DNA of 42,225 nt, from NCBI GenBank assembly GCA_903903975.1, contig CAIVAS010000116.1, positions 1 through 42,225 of the forward strand, in the 5' to 3' direction. Positions 3,048-14,780 of this stretch are shown here, one piece after another; the stretch's first letter is position 1; every line of letters begins with the position of its first letter. The DNA comes from an uncultured Burkholderiales bacterium. Its GTDB lineage: Bacteria > Pseudomonadota > Gammaproteobacteria > Burkholderiales > Burkholderiaceae_E. A program made the translations under genes and the position numbers. A model generated the notes under the pieces. It was not told where the DNA came from and ran no database searches. It was given only the letters and a program-made list of their open reading frames with translations.

Positions 3048-4241
3048 TCAGGCGAGCGGCAGGAATTTCTGGGCGAGCCGCGCCCAGTAGCTGCCGCCCA
3101 GCGGAATCAGCTCGTCGTTGAAGTCATAGCTCGGGTTGTGCAGCATGCAAGGCCCCATGCCATGGCCCGAGTCGCGATGCGAGCCGTCGCCGTTGCCGAT
3201 AAAGACATAGCAGCCGGCCTTGACCTGCAGCATGAACGCGAAATCTTCTGCGCCCATGGTCGGTTCGCAGGCGGCATCGACATTGGCCTCGCCGACCAGA
3301 TCCTTGAGGACCGATACCGCGAAAGCGGTCTGCGCCGGATCGTTGATGGTGGGCGGATAGTTGCGATGAAAGTGCAGTGAGCCGGTTGCGCCGAAGGCCG
3401 GCGGCAGCTGCTCGGTGATCGACCGCATGCGCGACTCGACCAGATCGAGGGTCTCGGTGGTGAAGGTGCGCACCGTGCCGCGGATGATGGCGCTGTCGGG
3501 CACGATGTTGGTGGCGTTGCCGGCGTGAATCTCGGTGACCGACAGGACCGCGGTGTCGATCGGGCGCTTGTTGCGTGTGATGATCGACTGCAGGGCTTGC
3601 ACGAGATGGGTGGCCACCAGAACCGGGTCGACTCCCAGGTGCGGCATGGCGGCATGCGCGCCCTTGCCCTGCACCGTGATCTCGAACTCGCTGGACGACG
3701 CCATCATCGGGCCGGGCGTCACGCCGAAGGTGCCGGTCGCAGACCCGGGCCAGTTGTGCATGCCGAAGACCGCTTCGCACGGAAAGCGTTCGAACAGCCC
3801 GTCGTCGATCATCCTTTGCGCGCCGGCGCCGCCCTCTTCGGCCGGCTGAAAGATGAAATGCACGATGCCATCGAAGCCACCGTGCAGCGACAGCCAGCGG
3901 GCGCCGGCCAGCAGCATCGCGGTGTGTCCGTCGTGACCGCAGGCATGCATGCGGCCTGCGTGCTGCGAGGCATGATCGAAGGTGTTGTGCTCCTGCAGTG
4001 GCAAGGCGTCCATGTCGGCGCGCAGCCCGACCGACCGGGTCGAGCTGCCACGGCGCAAGGTGCCAACGACGCCGGTGCCGCCCACGCCGGTCGTGACCTC
4101 GATGCCCCAGGCAGCGAGTTTGGCGGCGACCAGGGCGGCGGTGCGGTGCTCCTGATAGCAAAGCTCGGGATGCGCGTGGATGTCGCGCCGGATCGACTGG
4201 ATTTCCGACTGCAGATCGAGGATTCCTTCAGCCAGCATCAT
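3048..4241 (-). CDS. M20-family metal-dependent amidohydrolase (hippurate hydrolase-like)
   Basis: Predicted cytoplasmic hydrolase of N-acyl amino acids or small peptides, 397 residues, M20D/ HipO-AbgB-like. Metal-binding and catalytic motifs are visible: RADMDALPLQE, HACGHDGH (residues 99-106), PAEEGG (around 135-136), GMHNWPG (around 162) and a C-terminal GAEDFAFM. No signal peptide is seen. The start is placed at the ATG-ATG pair at 4241, with GGAG about 10 bases upstream; the frame is open for 81 further codons but that stretch antisense to the molybdopterin gene is not family-like. As the first gene of the minus-strand peptide-transport operon it probably cleaves what the transporter brings in. 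Its promoter should lie in the 76 bases shared with the divergent molybdopterin oxidoreductase gene; I see no convincing hexamer pair there. Confidence 0.93.
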   Translation of the reverse strand: MMLAEGILDLQSEIQSIRRDIHAHPELCYQEHRTAALVAAKLAAWGIEVTTGVGGTGVVGTLRRGSSTRSVGLRADMDALPLQEHNTFDHASQHAGRMHACGHDGHTAMLLAGARWLSLHGGFDGIVHFIFQPAEEGGAGAQRMIDDGLFERFPCEAVFGMHNWPGSATGTFGVTPGPMMASSSEFEITVQGKGAHAAMPHLGVDPVLVATHLVQALQSIITRNKRPIDTAVLSVTEIHAGNATNIVPDSAIIRGTVRTFTTETLDLVESRMRSITEQLPPAFGATGSLHFHRNYPPTINDPAQTAFAVSVLKDLVGEANVDAACEPTMGAEDFAFMLQVKAGCYVFIGNGDGSHRDSGHGMGPCMLHNPSYDFNDELIPLGGSYWARLAQKFLPLA

Positions 4242-4317
4242 GATGGGATTGCTCCGGATTAAAGGGGTTAGCTTAACATCCGAGGCTTGCTCTCCAACCC
4301 TGTTTGCGACCGATTCC

Positions 4318-6444
4318 ATGCACTCCGAAAACAACGACTCGACCGGCGATGTGATCGTCCGTGGCGCCTGCCCGCACGACTGTCCCGACACCTGCGCGCT
4401 GCAGATCACCGTGCGCCAGGGCAGGGCGATAAAGGTCGTCGGCGACCCTGACCATCCGCCCACGCACGGGGCGCTTTGCACCAAGGTCTCGCGTTATCTC
4501 GAGCGGACCTATTCGCCCGACCGGCTCACCGTGCCGCTGCGCCGGGTTGGACCTAAGGGTTCGGGGCAGTTCGAGCCGGCCACCTGGGACGAAGCGCTCA
4601 GTGCGATCGCCGGCCGTCTGACCGAAGTCGCCGCTCGCGACCCCGAGCGAATCCTGCCTTACAGCTACGCCGGCACGATGGGGATGGTGCAGGGCGAAGG
4701 GATGGCGATGCGATTCTTTCACCGGCTCGGGGCCTCCTTGCTCGACCGGACGATCTGTTCGTCGGCGGGCAAGGAAGGTCTGGCATACACCTTGGGCGGA
4801 TCCGTCGGAATGGATGTCGAACAGTTTGCCAATGCAGGGCTGATCCTGATCTGGGGCTCCAACCCGATCACCTCGAGCGTCCATTTCTGGAGCCAGGCCC
4901 AGGAGGCGCGCCGTCGCGGCGCCCGGTTGATCGCCATCGACCCCTATCGCACCGCCACCGCCGAGCGCTGCGACCAGCACATCGCCCTGCTGCCCGGCAG
5001 CGATGGGGCGCTGGCGCTCGGGATCGTCCAGCAGCTGATCGAGCAGGGTCGGGTCGACCACGACTGGGTGACCCGCCACACCCTCGGATTTGATGCGCTC
5101 GCGGCCCGCGCCGCCGCCTGGACGCCTGATCGCGTGGCACGCACCTGCGGCCTGACCGAGGCCGAGGTGATCGGGCTGGCACGCGACTACGGCAGCATCA
5201 CGCCGGCCGCGATCCGGCTCAACTACGGCATGCAGCGCACCCGCGGCGGCGGCAACGCGGCCCGGCTGGTGGCCGGGCTGCCGGCGCTCATCGGTGCCTG
5301 GCGGCATCCGGCCGGCGGCATGCTGCTGTCGTCGGGCAGCCATTTCGGTGTCGACAACCAGGCCTGGGTCCGTCCCGACCTGCTCGCCGGACGCCGCCCG
5401 CGCACGATCAACATGTCGACCATCGGCGATGCGCTGGCCCAGGCCGATCCGCCGATCGAGGCGATGATCGTTTACAACGCCAATCCGGTCGCGGTCGCGC
5501 CCGACAGCGAGAAGGTGATCGGCGGCTTCAGGCGCGAGGACCTCTTTACCGTCGTGATCGAGCAGTTCATGACCGACACCGCCGACTATGCCGACTGGGT
5601 GCTGCCGGCCACAACGCAGCTCGAGCACTTCGATCTGCACAAGACCTATGGCCATCGCTGGTGGGTCGCCAATCAGCCGGCGATTGCGCCGCTCGGCCAG
5701 GCGCTGCCGAATTCGGAAGTCTTCCGGCGGCTCGCCGACCGCATGGGTTTTCAGGATGCCTGCCTGCATGAGTCGGATGAGGCAGTGGCGGCCAGCGCGC
5801 TGTTGCTCAATGATCCGCGGCTGCCTGCAGCGCTTGCGAGCGCTGCGGCCGAGCACGGCGGCGCAGGGCCGGTCGCTGCGCGCGCGGCGCTCGATGTGCT
5901 GAGTGATCTGGGCTACGCCAAAGTGCAGGAGGCCGACGCGCCGTTTGCAAACGGCGGCTTTCCGTCGCCCTCGGGCAAGGTCGAGTTTGTCTCGGCGCGC
6001 CTTGCCGCGATGGGCCTGGACCCCTTGCCCGACTACCTGCCGCCTTACGAGTCGGCGCAATCGTCGCCCGAGCTCGCGGCACGATTTCCGCTTGCCATGA
6101 TTTCGCCCCCGGCACGGCATTTCCTGAACTCGACCTTCGTCAATGTCGACAGTCTGCGGGCGGCCGAGCGCGAGCCGGGGGTTGATCTGCATCCCGACGA
6201 TGCCGCGGCGCGGGGCCTGGCCGATGGCGCGATGGTGCGGGTCTTCAATGATCGCGGCTCGTTTCTTGCCCGCTGCAAGATCAGCGATCGGACCCGGCCC
6301 GGTGTAGCCGCCGCCTGGGGCATCTGGTGGCACAAGCGCACGAAGGGCGGGCGCAATGTCAATGCGGTGACCGGTCAGGCGCTGAGCGATCTGGGGCGCG
6401 CACCGACTTTCTACGATTGTCTGGTCGAGGTGGCACCGGAATGA
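4318..6444 (+). CDS. Molybdopterin-dependent oxidoreductase with one 4Fe-4S cluster
   Basis: Member of the DMSO reductase/formate dehydrogenase superfamily, 708 residues. The N-terminus has the cluster-binding pattern C18-x3-C22-x3-C26-x27-C54, followed by GALCTKVSRYLERTYSPDRL. Central motifs include TICSSAGKEG (C147, the region that usually supplies the Mo ligand), LIWGSNP and IDPYRT, and the C-terminal molydopterin dinucleotide-binding domain is seen around LAMISPPARHFLNSTF and VRVFNDRGSF. There is no twin-arginine signal, so it should be cytoplasmic. The start is the ATG directly before HSENNDS; the frame is open 46 codons further but those lie antisense to the M20 gene. Substrate unknown: the family is too broad to say. 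Its stop overlaps the next start as ATGA. Confidence 0.92.
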   Translation: MHSENNDSTGDVIVRGACPHDCPDTCALQITVRQGRAIKVVGDPDHPPTHGALCTKVSRYLERTYSPDRLTVPLRRVGPKGSGQFEPATWDEALSAIAGRLTEVAARDPERILPYSYAGTMGMVQGEGMAMRFFHRLGASLLDRTICSSAGKEGLAYTLGGSVGMDVEQFANAGLILIWGSNPITSSVHFWSQAQEARRRGARLIAIDPYRTATAERCDQHIALLPGSDGALALGIVQQLIEQGRVDHDWVTRHTLGFDALAARAAAWTPDRVARTCGLTEAEVIGLARDYGSITPAAIRLNYGMQRTRGGGNAARLVAGLPALIGAWRHPAGGMLLSSGSHFGVDNQAWVRPDLLAGRRPRTINMSTIGDALAQADPPIEAMIVYNANPVAVAPDSEKVIGGFRREDLFTVVIEQFMTDTADYADWVLPATTQLEHFDLHKTYGHRWWVANQPAIAPLGQALPNSEVFRRLADRMGFQDACLHESDEAVAASALLLNDPRLPAALASAAAEHGGAGPVAARAALDVLSDLGYAKVQEADAPFANGGFPSPSGKVEFVSARLAAMGLDPLPDYLPPYESAQSSPELAARFPLAMISPPARHFLNSTFVNVDSLRAAEREPGVDLHPDDAAARGLADGAMVRVFNDRGSFLARCKISDRTRPGVAAAWGIWWHKRTKGGRNVNAVTGQALSDLGRAPTFYDCLVEVAPE

Positions 6445-7580
6445 AACGGCATATGCGCAGCGCCCGTGGCGGCCTGAGACTGGCTGCTGTAGCGGGGCTT
6501 GTGCTGCTGGCGCAGGCCATCGGCGGCTGCTCGAGTCTGCAGGACGGGCCGGGCTACTACCTGCAGTCGATGTTCGGTCATCTCGACATGATCAGCCGGG
6601 CCAAACCGGTCGACACCGTGATTGCCGATGACGCCACCGACCCGGCGCTGCGCAAGCGCCTCGAGCAGGCGCGCACGATGCGCGCCTTTGCAAGCCAATC
6701 GCTGAGGCTTCCCGACAACGCCAGCTACACGACGTATGCCGATCTGCAGCGTCCCTACGCCTTGTGGAATGTGTTTGCGACGCCCGAGCTGTCCTTGACT
6801 CTGCAGCAGTGGTGCTTTCCGGTGGCCGGCTGCGTCAGCTACCGCGGCTACTATGACCGCGTCGATGCCGAACGTTTTGCCAGGGATCTCGATCAGCAGC
6901 GGCTCGACGTCAGTGTCGGCGGCGTGCCGGCCTACTCGACGCTCGGCTGGTTCGATGATCCGCTGCTGTCGACCTTCGTTCAGTACCCGGAAGGCGAACT
7001 GGCGAGGCTGATGTTTCATGAGCTTGCCCATCAGGTGGTCTATGTGCCGGGCGACACCACCTTCAACGAATCCTTTGCCTCGGCGGTCGAGGAGATCGGC
7101 GTTGAAAAGTGGTTTGCCCAGCGCAACGACCCGGCGGCGGCACTCGCCTACCGGCAATACGACGAGCGCCGCCGCAAGTTTCTCGAGCTGCTGATCCGCC
7201 ACAAGGCCAAGCTGGCCGAGGTGTATGCCAGCCCGGTGTCCGATGAGAAAAAGCGTCTGGGCAAGCAGCAGGTCTTCGAATCCCTGCGGGCTGATTACCA
7301 GCAGCTCAAGGACTCCTGGGGCGGCAATACCGCCTACGACCGCTGGTTTGCCCAGCCGGTCAACAATGCGCGACTGGCCGCGGTGGGCGCCTACAGCGAT
7401 CTGGTCCCGGCGTTTCGGGTGCTTTTCGATCGCTCCAATGGCGAATTCACACCCTTTTACGCCAGCGTCAGGCAGCTGGCTGCACTCGATAAACCCCTGC
7501 GGGATGCCCGCCTCGCCTCGTTGGCGCCGCCAAGGCTGATCGCGCAGACCGACTCGAACCGGCAAGTCGGGCGACAATAG
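6441..7580 (+). CDS. Putative lipoprotein zinc aminopeptidase (PF10023-like)
   Basis: Probable membrane-anchored metallopeptidase, 379 residues. The N-terminus is basic (MKRHMRSARGGLR), then hydrophobic, then a lipobox-like IGGC with C30 as the lipidated residue. The zinc site HELAHQ (H193, E194, H197) is followed by NESFAS with E210 as the likely third ligand, an arrangement of gluzincin peptidases. The overall pattern (YYLQSMFGHLDMI near the N-terminus, YALWNVFATPELSL, CVSYRGYY) matches the uncharacterised 'putative aminopeptidase' family PF10023. It overlaps the molybdopterin gene by four bases (ATGA) and so is probably co-transcribed with it. Substrate unproven. A 143-base gap separates it from the transglutaminase/amidoligase gene; I see no clear terminator or promoter in that gap. 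Confidence 0.82.
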   Translation: MKRHMRSARGGLRLAAVAGLVLLAQAIGGCSSLQDGPGYYLQSMFGHLDMISRAKPVDTVIADDATDPALRKRLEQARTMRAFASQSLRLPDNASYTTYADLQRPYALWNVFATPELSLTLQQWCFPVAGCVSYRGYYDRVDAERFARDLDQQRLDVSVGGVPAYSTLGWFDDPLLSTFVQYPEGELARLMFHELAHQVVYVPGDTTFNESFASAVEEIGVEKWFAQRNDPAAALAYRQYDERRRKFLELLIRHKAKLAEVYASPVSDEKKRLGKQQVFESLRADYQQLKDSWGGNTAYDRWFAQPVNNARLAAVGAYSDLVPAFRVLFDRSNGEFTPFYASVRQLAALDKPLRDARLASLAPPRLIAQTDSNRQVGRQ

Positions 7581-7723
7581 CGCCGCAGGCGTCGGCCGGA
7601 TGGCTGGCGATCGCCTTCGGGATGCTGATGGCACGGGGTTTGCATTGACCTTGGTTGACGTCGCGTCTGGCGGTTTGCCACGTCCGCTTCACGTCGCTAG
7701 CAGGTCATGAGGGAGTTGTACCC

Positions 7724-10700
7724 GTGTCGATCCATGTTGCCCTGAATCATCTGAGCCGCTACACCTATGATCGGCCGGTCGCGCTTGGGCCCCAGGTCAT
7801 TCGGCTGCGGCCGGCGCCGCATTCGCGCAGTCGGGTGCTGTCGTATTCGATGCGCATCACCCCGGCCGAGCATTTCCTCAACTGGCAGCAGGATCCGCAG
7901 TCGAACTGGCTCGCCCGGGCGGTGTTTCCGGAGCGCATCACCGAACTCGCGATCGAAGTCGACTTCGTCGCCGAGATGGCGGTCTTCAATCCCTTCGACT
8001 TTTTTCTCGAGCCCTACGCCGAGAATTTCCCGTTCAGCTACGAATCGGCCGAACGCGACGAACTCGCGCCCTATCTGGCGCGCCTGCCGGTCACGCCGCG
8101 CGTCGGGCAATGGCTGGGCGAGGTCCCGCGCGAGTTGATGCGCACCGTCGATTTTCTGGTTGGGCTCAATCAGCGCGTGCAAAACGACATCAGCTACCTG
8201 ATCCGCATGGAGCCGGGTGTGCAGACGCCCGAGCAGACCCTCGAGCTGCGCTCGGGTTCATGTCGCGATTCGGCCTGGCTGCTGGTGCAGCTGCTGCGCG
8301 GCCTTGGCTTGGCGGCCCGCTTTGTCTCGGGATACCTGATCCAGCTGGTGCCCGACGTGAAGTCGCTCGACGGGCCGCAGGGCGCCACCCACGATTTCAC
8401 CGACCTGCATGCCTGGTGCGAGGTCTATCTGCCGGGCGCGGGCTGGATCGGGCTGGATCCGACCTCGGGTCTGATGGCCGGCGAAGGTCATATCCCAGTG
8501 GCCTGCACGCCCGATCCGGCATCAGCCGCGCCGCTCACCGGGCTGGTCGAGCCGGCCGGCTGCGAGTTCGTCCACCTGATGACGGTCAAGCGGGTGTTTG
8601 AGGCGCCGCGCGTCACCAAACCCTACGATGCGTTGCAGTGGCAGGCGATCGATGCGCTCGGGCGAAAGGTTGATGCCGATCTGGTCGCGGGCGACGTGCG
8701 CCTGACCCAGGGCGGCGAGCCGACCTTCGTGTCGATCGACGACCGCGACGGCGCCGAGTGGAATACCGAGGCGCTCGGCCCCAACAAGCGCCGGCTGTCC
8801 GCCGAACTGCTGCAGCGGCTGCGCGCCAGTCAGGGCAACCAGGGTCTGCTGCACTACGGCCAGGGCAAGTGGTATCCGGGCGAGCAGCTGCCGCGCTGGT
8901 CGCTCAACTGGTTCTGGCGGCGCGATGGCGAGCCGATCGTCGGCGATCTGTCGGTATTGGCCACCGAGGTCGACGATCATCCGCGCTTGTCTGACCAGAT
9001 GTCGGGCGACGTGTCCGACCCGGTCTCGACCATCGCGCAGGCCCGCGAACTCGTGCTGGATATCGCGGCCCGGCTGGGCGTCGATCCGCAGAAGGCCTTC
9101 GAGGCCTACGAGGATCCGGTGCACTTCGTTCATCGCGAGCAGCAACTGCCGGTCAATGTCGATGTGCTCGATGCCAGGCTCGACGATCCGATGGAGCGCG
9201 AGCGTCTGCATCGCGTCTTTGCCCACGGCCTGGGCGAGCCGGTCGGCTGGATTCTGCCGATCCAGCCCGATCCGCGCCCGAGTTCGACATCAAATGCGAC
9301 CCTGAGTGCGACGGGCCCGGCGTCTGGCAGCGTCAAGCAGCCGGTTCAGCTGTGGCAGACCAGCGCCTGGCCCCTGCGCATGAACAAGTGCTTTCTGGCA
9401 CCCGGCGATTCGGCGATCGGCTATCGCTTGCCGCTGGCCTCGCTGCCCTGGGTGGCCGAGACCGACTATCCCTGGATTCATCAGGCCGACCCCAACCAGC
9501 CGCAAGGGCCGCTCGCGCCGCATCAATCCCAGCTCGGCACCGCCTACGATCCGCGCCAGGCGTCGGTGAGCAAGCCGATCGCGCCGCGCGGCGTCCAGGC
9601 GATCGCGCGTCGTGGCGAGCCGCCCGCCCGTGTGGTGCAGCAGATCGGGCGCGATGCCAGCGACGGCCAGGGCAGTGCTGCCGGCGGATCCTATTCGGGC
9701 GTCGCCCGGACCGCGCTGTGCATCGAGCCGCGTGACGGGCGTCTTTATGTCTTCATGCCGCCGGCCGCCACCCTCGATCAATACCTGCAGCTGGTCGCGG
9801 CGGTCGAGTCGAGCGCCGCCGCAGCCGGCCTGCAGGTGATCTTCGAAGGCTATGAGCCGCCCCGCGATGCCCGCCTGGCGGTGCTGCGCATTACTTCCGA
9901 CCCGGGCGTGATCGAAGTCAATGTCCATCCGAGCGCGAGCTGGGATGAGCTGGTCAGCCGCACCACCGAGCTCTACCAGGCCGCCCACCTGACCCGCCTG
10001 TCCACCGAGAAGTTCATGCTCGATGGCCGCCATGTCGGCACCGGCGGCGGCAACCATGTGGTGCTCGGTGGCGCCACGCCCGCCGACTCGCCCTTCCTGC
10101 GCCGCCCCGACCTGCTGCCCAGCCTGATCGCCTGGTGGCTGTCGCACCCTTCCTTGTCCTATCTGTTTTCGGGTCTGTTCATCGGCCCGACCAGCCAGGC
10201 GCCGCGCATTGATGAGGCTCGGCTCGACTCGGTGCGCGAGCTCGAGATTGCCTTCGGCGAGCTCGCCCGGCTGCAGGCGCAGGGCACCGATGCCTGCCCG
10301 CCCTGGCTGGTCGACCGGCTGCTGCGCAATCTGCTGGTCGATGTCACCGGCAACACCCATCGTGCCGAGTTCTGCATCGACAAGCTCTATTCGCCTGACT
10401 CGTCCAGCGGCCGCCTGGGGCTGCTCGAGATGCGCGGCTTCGAGATGCCGCCGCACGCCCAGATGAGCCTGCTGCAACTGCTGCTGATCCGGGCGCTGAT
10501 CGCCCGATTCTGGCGCGATCCGCTGGTGCCGACCCGGCTGCCGCGCTGGGGTACGGCGCTGCACGACCGCTTCATGCTGCCGTCGGTGTTGCGCGAAGAC
10601 CTGCGCGACGTGCTCGACGATCTGCGCGCGGCAGGCTATGACTTCCAGCTCGACTGGTTCGCACCGCACTTCGAGTTCCGCTTCCCCAAGCTCGGCGATT

Positions 10701-11221
10701 TCGAGGCCGGCGGCGTGCAGGTCGATCTGCGCATGGCGCTCGAACCCTGGCCGGTGATGGGCGAGGAGGGCGCCGCCGGTGGCACGGTGCGCTTCGTCGA
10801 TTCGTCGATCGAGCGCATCGAGGTGTTGGCCCGCGGTCTGGTCGCCGGGCGCCACGCGCTGCTCGTCAATGGCCATACCCTGCCGCTGCAGGCGGTGGGT
10901 GGCGAGGGCGCGCAGGTGGGGGCGGTGCGCTATCGCGCCTGGCAGCCGACGTCCTGCCTGCATCCCACGATCGGCGTGCATGCGCCGCTCACGGTCGATC
11001 TGGTCGATACCTGGAATGGCCGCTCGATCGCAGGCTGTCAGTACCACGTCTCGCATCCGGGCGGCCTCAGTCATGAGGCCTTTCCGATCAATGACTATGA
11101 GGCGCAGGCCCGCCGGATGGCGCGTTTTTTCCGTATGGGCCACACGCCCGGCGCCATGAAGGTCGAGCCGGCCCGCATCGATCCTGAGTCGCCCTTCACG
11201 CTGGACCTGCGGCGTGCGTGA
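7724..11221 (+). CDS. Transglutaminase-like plus DUF2126 (GS-fold amidoligase) fusion protein
   Basis: Large cytoplasmic two-part protein, 1165 residues. The N-terminal part (about 1-300) is a transglutaminase-like cysteine peptidase domain with an intact triad: C180 in SGSCRDSAW, H229 in TDLHAWCEVY, D245 in GLDPTSG. The remainder fits DUF2126, which published comparative work (Iyer, Aravind and colleagues) assigned to glutamine-synthetase-like COOH-NH2 ligases; seen here are LTQGGEPTFVSIDD, GPNKRR, KWYPGEQLPRW and, near the C-terminus, DGRHVGTGGGNHV and FEMPPHAQMSLLQLLL. The GTG start has GAGGGAG eight bases upstream and begins SIHVALNHLSRYTYDRP, as usual for the family. The downstream gene encodes an ATP-grasp/Alpha-E protein. 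Biochemical role unknown; ligation and cleavage of a peptide or peptide-like adduct is inferred from the domains. The 3' end lies in a tandem repeat described separately. Confidence 0.93.
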   Translation: MSIHVALNHLSRYTYDRPVALGPQVIRLRPAPHSRSRVLSYSMRITPAEHFLNWQQDPQSNWLARAVFPERITELAIEVDFVAEMAVFNPFDFFLEPYAENFPFSYESAERDELAPYLARLPVTPRVGQWLGEVPRELMRTVDFLVGLNQRVQNDISYLIRMEPGVQTPEQTLELRSGSCRDSAWLLVQLLRGLGLAARFVSGYLIQLVPDVKSLDGPQGATHDFTDLHAWCEVYLPGAGWIGLDPTSGLMAGEGHIPVACTPDPASAAPLTGLVEPAGCEFVHLMTVKRVFEAPRVTKPYDALQWQAIDALGRKVDADLVAGDVRLTQGGEPTFVSIDDRDGAEWNTEALGPNKRRLSAELLQRLRASQGNQGLLHYGQGKWYPGEQLPRWSLNWFWRRDGEPIVGDLSVLATEVDDHPRLSDQMSGDVSDPVSTIAQARELVLDIAARLGVDPQKAFEAYEDPVHFVHREQQLPVNVDVLDARLDDPMERERLHRVFAHGLGEPVGWILPIQPDPRPSSTSNATLSATGPASGSVKQPVQLWQTSAWPLRMNKCFLAPGDSAIGYRLPLASLPWVAETDYPWIHQADPNQPQGPLAPHQSQLGTAYDPRQASVSKPIAPRGVQAIARRGEPPARVVQQIGRDASDGQGSAAGGSYSGVARTALCIEPRDGRLYVFMPPAATLDQYLQLVAAVESSAAAAGLQVIFEGYEPPRDARLAVLRITSDPGVIEVNVHPSASWDELVSRTTELYQAAHLTRLSTEKFMLDGRHVGTGGGNHVVLGGATPADSPFLRRPDLLPSLIAWWLSHPSLSYLFSGLFIGPTSQAPRIDEARLDSVRELEIAFGELARLQAQGTDACPPWLVDRLLRNLLVDVTGNTHRAEFCIDKLYSPDSSSGRLGLLEMRGFEMPPHAQMSLLQLLLIRALIARFWRDPLVPTRLPRWGTALHDRFMLPSVLREDLRDVLDDLRAAGYDFQLDWFAPHFEFRFPKLGDFEAGGVQVDLRMALEPWPVMGEEGAAGGTVRFVDSSIERIEVLARGLVAGRHALLVNGHTLPLQAVGGEGAQVGAVRYRAWQPTSCLHPTIGVHAPLTVDLVDTWNGRSIAGCQYHVSHPGGLSHEAFPINDYEAQARRMARFFRMGHTPGAMKVEPARIDPESPFTLDLRRA

Positions 11222-11316
11222 CCTGCTTTGGGACGATAAGAACTGCGGCGTGCGTGACTTGCTCGGCGACGATGAGGACCTGCGGCGTGCGTGACCTGCT
11301 CGGCGACTATGCGCGC
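11207..11316 (+). repeat. Triplicated 36/37-bp repeat spanning a stop/start gene junction
   Basis: Three tandem copies begin at 11207, 11243 and 11280, each opening with CTGCGGCGTGCGTGAC followed by CTGCT or TTGCT. The unit contains both the stop of the DUF2126 gene (CGTGCGTGA) and the GTG start of the ATP-grasp gene, which overlap by eight bases. Copy 1 supplies the working stop. Copies 1 and 2 are in frame with each other (36 bp), but copy 3 is shifted (37 bp), so translation from the GTG of copy 1 or 2 ends at the TGA inside copy 3. Only the GTG of copy 3 opens the long reading frame; copy 2 supplies GAGGA eight bases before it. Confidence 0.9.
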
Positions 11317-13740
11317 ACCTCGGTGCGCTTCGACGAGATGCTCGACCCCGGCGATCAGCCGCGCCCGCACTGGACTGCACTGATCGACCTGCTGGCTCAC
11401 GCCGAGCCCGAGCGGGTTCGCGAGCGCACCGCGACCATCGAGCGCGAGATCCGTGACAGCGGCCTGACCTACAACATCTACGCCGACCCGGAAGGCCAGT
11501 CGCGACCCTGGTCGCTCGATGGTCTGCCGATGATCATCCCGGCCCACGAGTGGGCGCAGATCGAGGCCGGCGTCGCGCAGCGCGCCCGCCTGATGAACGC
11601 ACTGCTCGCTGATTTTTACGGGCCGCAGACGCTGCTGGCCGACGGCAGCATTCCGCCCGGGCTGGTGCTGGGCCATGGCGCCTTTCAGCGCGCCGCCTGC
11701 GGCGCCGACCTGCCGGGCGGCGTGGCGCTCTTTTCCTACGCGGTCGACCTCGCCAGGGCGCCCAACGGCCAGTGGTGGGCGATCGCCGATCGCACCCAGG
11801 CACCGTCGGGCGCGGGCTATTCGGTCGAGAATCGGTTGATCGTCTCGCGCGTTTTTCCCCGGCTTTTTCGCGATCTGCACACCCAGCGGATCGCCGGCTT
11901 TTTCGCGACCCTGCGTGATTCGCTGCGCCGTCTCGCCCCGCAAGGCGATGGCGCCCACCTTACCGTGCTGCTCACCCCGGGCCCCTACAACGAGACCTAT
12001 TCCGAGCACTCGCTGCTGTCGCGCTATCTCGGCTTTACTCTGGTCGAAGGCCATGACCTGCTGGTGCGCAACGGCAAGGTCTGGCTCAAGACCGTCGACG
12101 GCCTGCGCCGTGTGCATGCCATCCTGCGTCGTCAGGACGACGATTTCTGCGATCCGCTCGAGCTGCGCGCCGATTCGGCATTAGGTGTGGCTGGGCTGGT
12201 CGATTGCGCACGACGCGGCACGGTCTTCATTGGCAACGCCATCGGTTCGGGCGTGCTCGAGTCGGGCGCCCTGATGGGTTTTTTGCCGCGTTTGAGCGAA
12301 CGCCTGCTCGGCGAGCCTTTGCAGATGCCCTCGGTAGCCACCTGGTGGCTCGGCGAACCGGCAGCGCTTGCCGACGCGCTGCCGCGCATGCACGAGCTGG
12401 TGTTCAAGCCGGTTGATCGACGCGGCGAGTCGTCGCCGATTTTCGGTGCCGACCTGGATGCCGCGCAGGCCCGGGCGCTGGCCGAAACCCTGCAACGCAG
12501 TCCGGCCAACTGGTTCGCCCAGGAACTGGTTCAACTCGCCCAGGCGCCGGTCAATGATCCGGTGCATCCCGGCCAGCTGGCGGCCCGCTCGGTCGGATTG
12601 CGGGTCTTTGCGGTCGCCTCGCGCGACGGCTATACCGTGATGCCGGGTGGCCTCACCCGGGTCTCGGCCGAGCCCGGCGCCCGCATCATCACCATGCAGC
12701 GCGGCGGCGCCTCCAAAGACACCTGGGTGCTGTCGGCTGCGCCGGTCAATGCCTCGCTCACGCTGCTGCAATCGACGGTCGGCGCAGCCGATCTGGTCCG
12801 ATCCAACTTGATCACCCTGTCATCGCGGGCTGCCGAAAACCTCTTCTGGTTCGGTCGCTATTCAGAGCGGGCCGAAGATTCGGCGAGGCTGCTGCGCGTG
12901 GCCTTGCCGCGCCTGCTGGTCGATGAGGATGACGATCGCACTGCGCAGGCCCCGCTGCTGGCCTTTGCCCGGATGCTTGGCCTCATCGGCCCCGACGATG
13001 CCGCCGAATCCTCACTGCTCGACGCAGTCTTCGATTCCGAACGCATTGGTGCGCTGCCGGGCAGCCTGCGGCAGGTCCAGCGCCTGGCGTTCAGCCTTCG
13101 TGAGCGCTTGTCGACCGATCACTGGCGCACCATCAATCGACTGCTGCTCGACCCCGGATTCGACGGTTTTCGCGACCTGCCGCAGGCGATCGCCCTGCTC
13201 GACCGCACGGTGAGCGGCCTGTTGACCCTGTCGGGTTTCACCCTCGATGGCATGACCCGCGATACCGGCTGGCGATTCCTGTCGCTGGGTCGGCGCATCG
13301 AGCGCCTGAGGGCGGTCTGCGGTGCGCTCTCGACCGCGGTGCGCGAGGGCCGTTCGGCCGGACTCGACTGGCTGCTCGAGTTCTGCGACTCCACCATCAC
13401 CTATCGCTCGCGCTATATGGGGCAGCCCGAATGGCTGCCGGTGCTCGACCTGCTCATTCGCGACGACACCAATCCGCGCTCGGTCCTGTTTCAGCTCAAG
13501 GGCCTCGATCAGGTCATCGCCCACCTTGATCGCGCCATTGGTGGCGTGGCGGCCGATTTCCTGCCCAAAGCCCTCACCAGCCTTGGGCGCTACGATGATC
13601 CGGCATCGCTCGAGCCCGATGCTGCACTGGCCGACTGGCTCGACAGTATTTCGAAAGACGCTGCATCGCTGTCCGAACGTCTATCGATGCAGTTCTTTAC
13701 GCCGGCGCAGACCAGTAATATCGCGACCTTCGCTGCCTGA
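11287..13740 (+). CDS. Circularly permuted ATP-grasp fused to Alpha-E domain
   Basis: Predicted cytoplasmic ligase of 817 residues. Residues up to about 500 match the circularly permuted ATP-grasp families (old DUF404/DUF407): GLTYNIYADPEGQSRPWSLD, IADRTQAPSGAGYSVENR, PGPYNETYSEHSLLSRYLG, VFKPVDRRGESSPIF and ITMQRGGASKDTWVL. From about 511 (LSSRAAENLFWFGRYSERAE) to the end is an Alpha-E domain (old DUF403). These two are often separate neighbouring genes; here they are one polypeptide. The GTG at 11287 (VRDLLGDYA) is chosen because GAGGA lies eight bases upstream; an in-frame ATG at 11272 and GTG at 11218 give short N-terminal extensions that consist only of mistranslated repeat. It lies between two transglutaminase-like genes; together they fit the amide-bond-forming systems predicted by comparative genomics. 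The substrate is unknown. Confidence 0.92.
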   Translation: MRDLLGDYARTSVRFDEMLDPGDQPRPHWTALIDLLAHAEPERVRERTATIEREIRDSGLTYNIYADPEGQSRPWSLDGLPMIIPAHEWAQIEAGVAQRARLMNALLADFYGPQTLLADGSIPPGLVLGHGAFQRAACGADLPGGVALFSYAVDLARAPNGQWWAIADRTQAPSGAGYSVENRLIVSRVFPRLFRDLHTQRIAGFFATLRDSLRRLAPQGDGAHLTVLLTPGPYNETYSEHSLLSRYLGFTLVEGHDLLVRNGKVWLKTVDGLRRVHAILRRQDDDFCDPLELRADSALGVAGLVDCARRGTVFIGNAIGSGVLESGALMGFLPRLSERLLGEPLQMPSVATWWLGEPAALADALPRMHELVFKPVDRRGESSPIFGADLDAAQARALAETLQRSPANWFAQELVQLAQAPVNDPVHPGQLAARSVGLRVFAVASRDGYTVMPGGLTRVSAEPGARIITMQRGGASKDTWVLSAAPVNASLTLLQSTVGAADLVRSNLITLSSRAAENLFWFGRYSERAEDSARLLRVALPRLLVDEDDDRTAQAPLLAFARMLGLIGPDDAAESSLLDAVFDSERIGALPGSLRQVQRLAFSLRERLSTDHWRTINRLLLDPGFDGFRDLPQAIALLDRTVSGLLTLSGFTLDGMTRDTGWRFLSLGRRIERLRAVCGALSTAVREGRSAGLDWLLEFCDSTITYRSRYMGQPEWLPVLDLLIRDDTNPRSVLFQLKGLDQVIAHLDRAIGGVAADFLPKALTSLGRYDDPASLEPDAALADWLDSISKDAASLSERLSMQFFTPAQTSNIATFAA

Positions 13741-13787
13741 CGCAGCGCAGCCATCATGGCCAGCCTGCACGCAGCGACTCCCCGCTC

Positions 13788-14780
13788 ATGAACCGCCCTC
13801 CGCCGTCTCCGCTTCCGCCGTCGCCGCCGCCGCCGCCGCACAGCACGACCCCGCCGGATCGTGGCGCCGATGAGCGAACCCCGCGCCGGATTCAGGTGGT
13901 TCACCAGACCCGCTATCAATACGAACTGCCGGTCGCGCAGTCGTGGCAACTGGCGCATCTGCGCCCGCGACAGGGCGGATCGCAGAGCGTGCTCAGCCAT
14001 TCCCTTGAGATCACGCCTCGTCCCGATTGGGTCGATGAGCGCGCCGACTATTTCGGCAATCCGGTGACTGCGTTCGCGATCCACTCGCCGCACGAAGGCC
14101 TGGATGTGATCGCGCGTTCGACGCTTGACCTCGCGCCCGCGCCGCCCGATTCCCCCGCGCTGATGCAGCCCTGGCGCGCCGCAGCGCTGCCGCCCGATCC
14201 CCGCACCGCCTATGAGCTTGCGCAGTATCTCGTGCCGAGTCCGCAGGTGCCTCGCTCGCGTCGAGCGACCTTCTATGCCGCCCGCAGCTTTCGATCGGGC
14301 ACGCCGTTTCTCGCGGCCTTGCAGGACTTTGCTGCGCGAATTCATCGCGACTTCGCCTTCGATGCCAGTGCGACCACGGTCACTACGCCGCTGGCCGAGG
14401 TTTTCGAGAGCCGCCGCGGTGTCTGTCAGGATTTTGCCCAACTCATGATTGCCGGCCTGCGCGGCGTCGGCGTGCCGGCCCGCTATGTCTCCGGCTACAT
14501 CCTGACCAATCCGCCGCCTGGCAAACCCCGACTGATCGGTGCAGATGCCTCGCATGCCTGGGTGTCGGCCTGGTGTGCCGGACAAGGCTGGATTGACATT
14601 GACCCGACCAACGCCCGACGCGTCGATCAGGACTTCGTGACGCTTGGCTGGGGCAGGGATTTTTCGGATGTCACGCCGTTGCGCGGCGTCATCCTGGGCG
14701 GTGGTGAGCAGGAGCTCGAAGCCCGTGTAACGGTATCGCCGCTGTCAGAAGCGCAGTTTCACACTGAGCCGCGCAGCTGA
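13788..14780 (+). CDS. Transglutaminase-like cysteine peptidase
   Basis: Protein of 330 residues with an N-terminal transglutaminase-associated beta domain (IQVVHQTRYQYELPV, LEITPRP) and a transglutaminase core. Triad residues are intact: C213 in GVCQDFAQ, H256 in ASHAWVSAW, and D270 or D272 in IDIDPTN. The core of these bacterial proteins usually acts as a protease or amidase rather than a cross-linker. The first 30 residues are proline-rich (PPPSPLPPSPPPPP) and poorly conserved in kind, so translation may start later, but no good alternative start precedes the conserved region and no strong ribosome-binding site is seen at the ATG. It lies 47 bases after the ATP-grasp/Alpha-E gene and is the last gene of that cluster before the convergent porin. 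Confidence 0.92.
   Translation: MNRPPPSPLPPSPPPPPHSTTPPDRGADERTPRRIQVVHQTRYQYELPVAQSWQLAHLRPRQGGSQSVLSHSLEITPRPDWVDERADYFGNPVTAFAIHSPHEGLDVIARSTLDLAPAPPDSPALMQPWRAAALPPDPRTAYELAQYLVPSPQVPRSRRATFYAARSFRSGTPFLAALQDFAARIHRDFAFDASATTVTTPLAEVFESRRGVCQDFAQLMIAGLRGVGVPARYVSGYILTNPPPGKPRLIGADASHAWVSAWCAGQGWIDIDPTNARRVDQDFVTLGWGRDFSDVTPLRGVILGGGEQELEARVTVSPLSEAQFHTEPRS

Follow-up and report, generated by a model that had tools for sequence, protein, structure and literature searches.

What does a putative ligase locus do when it encodes two transglutaminase-like (TG) proteins, an ATP-grasp and an amidoligase candidate, with no peptidase of the Anbu family beside them? The question is raised by positions 7724 to 14780 of a 42,225-nucleotide stretch of DNA from an uncultured Burkholderiales bacterium (the window, below). 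Three genes follow one another there, encoding a TG domain joined to DUF2126 (TG-DUF2126), a circularly permuted (CP) ATP-grasp fused to an Alpha-E domain (the fusion), and a second TG protein (TG2). In 2009 Iyer, Abhiman, Burroughs and Aravind reportedly predicted a peptide-tagging system made of CP ATP-grasp, glutamine synthetase (GS)-like ligase, Alpha-E, transglutaminase and Anbu, and both the gene set and its functional prediction are already known. An earlier note on this DNA placed the locus in that set, which agrees with the trio standing side by side. The reading that we favour, tentatively and at just short of an even chance, is that the locus is a sigma-54-driven operon that forms the accessory half of an Anbu amide-bond system, in which the fused protein would be a non-catalytic partner. 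An accessory module seems preferable to an Anbu-free pair of ligases because Anbu is present in the genome, because a sigma-54 promoter sequence precedes the operon, and because the fused ATP-grasp is without its predicted metal ligands. The features concerned are:

7629..7644, + strand: predicted sigma-54 (-24/-12) promoter TGGCACGGGGTTTGCA, 12/12 to the consensus used
7724-11221, + strand: TG-DUF2126 gene, GTG start, Pfam match
7724..8551, + strand: transglutaminase-like part of TG-DUF2126, triad C180/H229/D245 (codons 8261-8263, 8408-8410 and 8456-8458)
8552..11221, + strand: DUF2126 part, putative GS-like amidoligase (Pfam, 1221 bits)
11218..13740, + strand: CP ATP-grasp fused to Alpha-E (Pfam, 3n6x alignment, model and Foldseek)
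11746..11793, + strand: predicted Mg site, degenerate in the fused ATP-grasp, with D177 kept, A190 for Glu and R192 for Asn
12817..13698, + strand: Alpha-E domain of the fusion (Pfam)
13788..14780, + strand: second transglutaminase-like protein, TG2, triad C213, H256, D272

The domains that the earlier note assigned to the three genes are borne out by Pfam, with scores far over cut-off for all three products: Bact_transglu_N (7.6e-24), Transglut_core (2.1e-16) and DUF2126 (1221 bits) in TG-DUF2126, CP_ATPgrasp_2 (1e-143) and Alpha-E (1.7e-66) in the fusion, and two matches (2.1e-24 and 1.8e-19) in TG2. Since homology of the fusion to its relatives starts at about residue 21, its annotated GTG start at 11218 is probably too early and the true start would lie downstream. 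An alternative TTG start of TG-DUF2126 at 7655 seems unlikely, because the promoter stops just ahead of it.

The fused ATP-grasp lacks two predicted metal ligands

Homologs were drawn from the best 80 of at least 593 confirmed candidate named loci, plus 20 regions of family genomes; the closest named record among the matches listed is a Burkholderiales metagenome-assembled genome from Lake Pavin (94% identity). ATP-grasps were assigned as fused or standalone by best match to the two such proteins of this genome, and as a check of that assignment none (0) of the standalone-type frames had an Alpha-E match. We aligned 90 of 91 fused-type frames (L135, cut, was dropped) and 40 of 42 standalone-type frames (L103 and L138, also cut, were dropped); these counts include near-copies, and L074 and L081 are one sequence counted twice. 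For counts of residues, three fused and five standalone forms (including 3n6x) were added, giving 93 and 45, respectively.

The overall CP ATP-grasp fold is present in the fused protein, which aligns with 3n6x, a structure of standalone type, at an E-value of 2.2e-82 and gap-free at key sites; its predicted model (predicted local distance difference test, pLDDT, 84.7) retrieves 3n6x (1.8e-31) and eukaryotic glutathione synthetases (from 9e-11) in Foldseek. Standalone ATP-grasps have an invariant Asp, a Glu 13 residues further on and an Asn two residues after that, followed by Pro-Ser, and each of the three is found in 45/45 standalone forms. Fused forms retain the Asp (92/93), and have neither the Glu (0/93) nor the Asn (0/93): the first is replaced by Ala (49), Ser (30), Gly (8) or Asn (6), and the second by Arg (91) or His (2). 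After identity cuts at 80% and 70%, which leave 53 and 35 fused and 18 and 11 standalone forms, Glu and Asn are present in all standalone and in no fused proteins. The 93 fused forms are proteobacterial; extra ones outside the 93, from Granulicella (Acidobacteriota), Tsukamurella (Actinomycetota), Sphingomonas and Halomonas, agree at these columns, and separate forms of Bacillota, Bacteroidota and Deinococcota (one genome each) retain Glu and Asn.

Magnesium is bound through such Asp/Glu/Asn sets in D-Ala-D-Ala ligase and glutathionylspermidine synthetase, and four GSP_synth proteins have the same Asp/Glu/Asn spacing, followed by Pro-Thr. With its predicted ligands Glu and Asn gone, the fused ATP-grasp is unlikely to work as a normal ligase. 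Loss of active-site residues had been named in the earlier note as an outcome that would speak against it, and it is found in part, namely in the ATP-grasp, one of the two presumed ligases.

The change extends beyond the metal site. Standalone forms also have an invariant glycine-rich loop, His, Asp and Asn-Ser-Ser-Gln stretch; all of these are lost in fused forms, where K363 is kept in 72/90, K462 in 45/90 and R425 in 89/90. In 28 columns at least 90% of fused forms share one residue and at least 90% of standalone forms a different one, examples in the fused forms being R158 (89/90), E225 (89/90) and Q456 (87/90; 3n6x numbering for these three). Since each type conserves a residue of its own at these columns, the divergence is not simple decay; the types also form two clades (Shimodaira-Hasegawa-like approximate likelihood ratio support of 100 in a quick tree of 136 rows). 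There is, we judge, an even chance that this is an ancient, bacteria-wide pseudo-ATP-grasp, in which the Alpha-E-fused form would have exchanged Glu for a small residue and Asn for Arg and would be conserved as a partner, either non-catalytic or free of metal, to both DUF2126 and an intact ligase of Anbu type, in an amide cycle run under nitrogen starvation. The literature searched, with Iyer 2009 itself outside it, held no account of an inactive or metal-ligand-less fused ATP-grasp, and we claim no priority.

Anbu and an intact ATP-grasp are encoded elsewhere in the genome

The contig of the window (C116) has no PF00227 match, i.e. no Anbu, and the earlier description, a pair of ligases with a pair of peptidases and no Anbu, stands for the locus in this respect. 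It does not stand for the organism, where the genome search proposed as a check turned up Anbu, together with an intact ATP-grasp/Alpha-E pair. Contig C252 encodes a standalone ATP-grasp, then a second Alpha-E, and then the N-terminus of Anbu, a piece that matches solved chains (5nyw, labelled Peptidase, 5.7e-35; Anbu-labelled entries from 6.7e-22). The rest of the protein (residues 117-245, 97% identical to the protein of genome G048) stops at the last base of contig C132 (68,243 bases). As both parts run to contig ends, the gene is split between C252 and C132 by an assembly break; in G048 the same neighbours occur in one piece (L075). That C252 might be a contaminant was considered and is unlikely, given that Anbu of three genomes of the same genus (G050, G053 and G048) is nearly identical over 114 residues (96, 93 and 90%) and likewise follows Alpha-E directly, and that G048 shares the fur/bamE/dapB neighbours.

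The Anbu operon of this genome (L010, 1-2836) and that of G048 have no transglutaminase between Alpha-E and Anbu, and G045 and G046, of the same genus, have one. Three proteasome relatives are found in this genome, namely Anbu, a probable HslV (C182) and a 189-residue betaproteobacterial proteasome homolog (BPH; C202, 23095-23592, L008; 5ovu, E-value 3.7e-71). The BPH gene is flanked by two genes that start with a lipoyl domain, by eye like those of pyruvate dehydrogenase E2 and E3.

Some relatives have the two sets together. In loci L061 and L062 a single stretch encodes TG-DUF2126, fusion, TG2, ATP-grasp, Alpha-E, TG and Anbu, L064 has ATP-grasp, Alpha-E, Anbu and TG-DUF2126, Burkholderia arboris (L166) has ATP-grasp, Alpha-E, TG, TG-DUF2126, fusion and TG2, and L063 has both ATP-grasp sets without Anbu. 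A standalone ATP-grasp lies in the flanks taken around TG-DUF2126 in 35/80 named loci. Across 74 family genomes (this one included), searched with the 114-residue Anbu fragment as query, DUF2126 occurs in 30 and Anbu in 39 (the match in G026 being weak), with both in 24, DUF2126 only in six, Anbu only in 15 and neither in 29 (Fisher p 1.3e-4, uncorrected for kinship). When Alpha-E domains are split into fused and standalone by bit score (up to 229 versus 278 or more), 28 genomes have the fused form and 24 of these also a standalone one; the remaining four are G001, where Anbu and a TG occur close to the end of a contig, G004, G013 and G049. Alpha-E and Bact_transglu_N are found in an identical set of 47/74 genomes. 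From the joint clusters, the 35/80 linkage and the 24/28 and 47/74 co-occurrence we infer that the two loci cooperate.

A predicted sigma-54 promoter and a probable tie to nitrogen limitation

The window has no 12/12 sigma-54 match besides TGGCACGGGGTTTGCA, whichever strand is read, and the same sequence is found in L074/L081 (one record), L079, L080 and L082. Sites of at least 10/12 and at least 11/12 occur in 45 and 30, respectively, of 96 regions of 150 to 500 bp upstream of TG-DUF2126, versus 3.2% and 0.77% of 10,300 stretches of 500 bp taken at random from these loci; after dereplication the numbers are 33 and 20 of 70 (90% identity) and 20 and 13 of 51 (80%). Ahead of the other genes, sites of at least 10/12 are found for standalone ATP-grasp in 9/42, fused in 3/67, TG2 in 3/85, Alpha-E in 0/41 and Anbu in 0/8, and in Azospirillum, Sinorhizobium meliloti and B. 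arboris no site in the stretches checked reached 9/12. The Anbu operon of this genome has an 11/12 site starting 30 bp ahead of the listed ATP-grasp start, the true start of which may be further in, and rpoN is present twice (contigs C57 and C198). Palindromes of NtrC type (at least 10/12) are mildly enriched, in 14/95 upstreams of TG-DUF2126 and 11/42 of standalone ATP-grasp versus 4.8% at random, with 4/67 before the fused gene and 1/85 before TG2. The operon carries a predicted sigma-54 promoter, which would be used with NtrC as the probable activator. Another sigma-54-like site (11/12) lies at position 2239 of the window, on the minus strand, within the gene of an ABC permease and ahead of one for a solute-binding protein of peptide type, and may be due to chance.

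Published data on homologous clusters mostly agree with nitrogen limitation as the trigger. In Burkholderia cenocepacia, I35_5080-5083 are common targets of sigma-54 and NtrC, with log2 changes of -8.2, -9.4, -9.4 and -6.0 when ntrC is mutated and nitrogen is limiting (PMC5491218). In wild-type Pseudomonas putida, nitrogen limitation raised PP_2686-2688 11- to 15-fold and PP_2685 hardly (1.1) (PMC7801951); in another study of this species PP_2685 and PP_2688 were up on nitrate (log2 4.4 and 4.0), and on nitrogen depletion a PP_2688 promoter reporter rose 3.7-fold, with the PP_2685 reporter constitutive (PMC8050072). A table of RpoN sites in Bradyrhizobium lists a CP_ATPgrasp gene (PMC13207237), and marine metagenome networks link ATP-grasp, Alpha-E and transglutaminase domains with urea metabolism (PMC3597751).

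The transglutaminases, DUF2126 and gene order

Both catalytic triads are intact, as had been noted, and invariant among homologs: C180/H229/D245 of TG-DUF2126 in 96/96, and C213/H256/D272 of TG2 in 84/84 aligned of 87 TG2-type frames, three partial ones having been dropped (two pieces in L156 and one in L154). These two Bact_transglu_N genes, both in the window, are the only ones in the genome. Mean column identity is 64% for TG-DUF2126 versus 47% for the fusion (50 sequences each). In a Paraburkholderia locus (L156, 16083-17025) TG2 is split into two partial frames and may be broken or mis-sequenced, and in three of ten Anbu-type transglutaminases examined (L109, L142 and L148) a Ser occupies the place expected for the catalytic Cys.

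In a comparison of DUF2126 neighbourhoods, a check suggested earlier, the order TG-DUF2126, fusion, TG2 was complete in 68/80 named loci; contig ends truncate ten of the remaining 12, L140 shows a rearrangement, and in L102 only TG-DUF2126 is visible. The same trio of genes also exists in Granulicella (Acidobacteriota). On pSymB of S. meliloti (L161, 7911-15321 onward) a fused ATP-grasp/Alpha-E and a TG are found near glgP, glgB and glgC, with no DUF2126 within the 18 kb taken. Directly upstream of the window operon (4180-7580) lie a molybdopterin oxidoreductase and a PF10023 putative aminopeptidase, and among 20 mapped regions only those of the same genus have the same neighbours.

DUF2126 has many invariant Glu, His and Arg residues in alignments. 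The predicted model of TG-DUF2126 is of moderate quality (pLDDT 70.2); its transglutaminase part matches 3isr (2.5e-10), and GS and Dop are matched only at E-values of 0.4-1.2, amid unrelated matches. A comparison of DUF2126 with GlnA by hhalign gave no significant match. "GS-fold amidoligase" is therefore a putative label, owed to Pfam and to the 2009 prediction.

Weighing the explanations

The accessory-module reading can be spelled out as follows. Under nitrogen shortage sigma-54 and an enhancer-binding activator, probably NtrC, would turn on the window operon together with the separate one for ATP-grasp, Alpha-E and Anbu. Amide bonds on a peptide, or on a compound resembling one, would be formed by the intact standalone ATP-grasp of C252 and probably by DUF2126 as well; the two transglutaminase-like domains would cut or transfer such bonds, and Anbu would hydrolyse the products. 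The fused ATP-grasp/Alpha-E, a suspected pseudoenzyme, may act as an adaptor, bind substrate or exert control, on behalf of either DUF2126 or the intact pair of ATP-grasp and Alpha-E. Peptide tagging by the locus, as in the earlier note, is a putative role.

Several observations weigh against this reading. Physical linkage of Anbu itself to the DUF2126 locus is rare: two Anbu queries at an E-value of 1e-6, which could miss a divergent Anbu, detected it in the flanks taken in just 1/80 named loci. Six of the 30 DUF2126 genomes are without detectable Anbu, four of them 93-99% complete and two incomplete (57% and 75%); G034 and G035, in which no Anbu was detected, are in hundreds of contigs. The promoter is not universal either, since 51/96 upstreams of TG-DUF2126 lack a 10/12 site, and at a 70% identity cut sites of 10/12 and 11/12 fall to 6/22 and 2/22; upstream of either operon of this genome no NtrC-like palindrome exceeded chance. 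That Glu and Asn are metal ligands is a prediction from spacing and known structures, and a profile comparison of the ATP-grasp with GSP_synth gave no significant score. In an rpoN mutant of P. putida PP_2686-2688 were still up 14- to 20-fold, and urtA 11-fold (PMC7801951), which argues against a strict need for sigma-54 in that species. In Yersinia bercovieri no specific complex among the operon's proteins was detected; the same study reports phosphate release by its ATP-grasp (PMC6376114).

One may also consider other explanations. The fused ATP-grasp might be retooled rather than dead, with R192 standing in for a metal and a different nucleotide-dependent reaction being catalysed. The replacing residues are themselves conserved, as the 28 two-way columns with R158, E225 and Q456 illustrate, and K363 (72/90) and R425 (89/90) are kept; the glycine-rich loop, however, is not conserved and K462 remains in just 45/90, unlike a site selected for nucleotide turnover, and we consider this unlikely. 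Highly improbable, in our opinion, is the earlier note's self-standing protein-tagging set with two active ligases and two peptidases and no Anbu. Intact triads, the four nearly complete genomes with DUF2126 and no detected Anbu, and the single DUF2126 locus in 80 with Anbu nearby would all suit it, but this genome does have Anbu, and its fused ATP-grasp has lost the predicted metal ligands.

A further possibility, against which we lean somewhat, is that no protein is tagged at all and that the system stores nitrogen and sets it free through the synthesis and breakdown of a small peptide, a polyamine or a storage amide, a view that departs from the accessory-module reading only in the substrate. 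We know of no such storage metabolite, and Anbu resembles proteasome subunits; yet the folds found next after 3n6x are those of small-molecule ligases (glutathione and trypanothione synthetases). The homologs are under nitrogen control in the published data cited above, and Anbu of Y. bercovieri had neither peptidase nor amidase activity in the tests reported (PMC6376114).

The Anbu system is widespread, its structures have been solved, and a function is still lacking. The link between the two loci and the sigma-54 promoter of the DUF2126 operon may guide experimenters, pointing to nitrogen limitation as the time to look, to the standalone ATP-grasp and DUF2126 as the proteins to assay, and to the fused protein as one to treat as a partner.

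Comparison with known systems

The system of Iyer 2009, which other papers cite for this kind of gene set (e.g. PMC6376114 and PMC3597751), has the same families as the window locus. It differs in that the set is split here over two loci and in that the window ATP-grasp is without the predicted metal ligands. The Anbu operons of P. putida (PP_2685-2688) and Y. bercovieri share the ATP-grasp, Alpha-E and transglutaminase parts, with reported nitrogen control in P. putida, and the C252 operon of this genome is of that type, although it has no transglutaminase between Alpha-E and Anbu. In contrast, the window set has DUF2126 and the fused ATP-grasp/Alpha-E, and no Anbu. The B. cenocepacia cluster I35_5080-5083 is described as DUF404/407, DUF403, a TG and a large TG protein under NtrC and sigma-54 (PMC5491218); by analogy with the gene order of B. 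arboris the large protein is probably TG-DUF2126, and there is one cluster there as opposed to two loci here. RimK/RimB and Rlo likewise pair a ligase with a peptidase and retain an inactive relative as a working part. Their ATP-grasp and peptidase families are different ones (an ATP-grasp goes there with an aspartic peptidase), and the inactive member of Rlo is the transglutaminase RloB, whereas here it would be the ATP-grasp.

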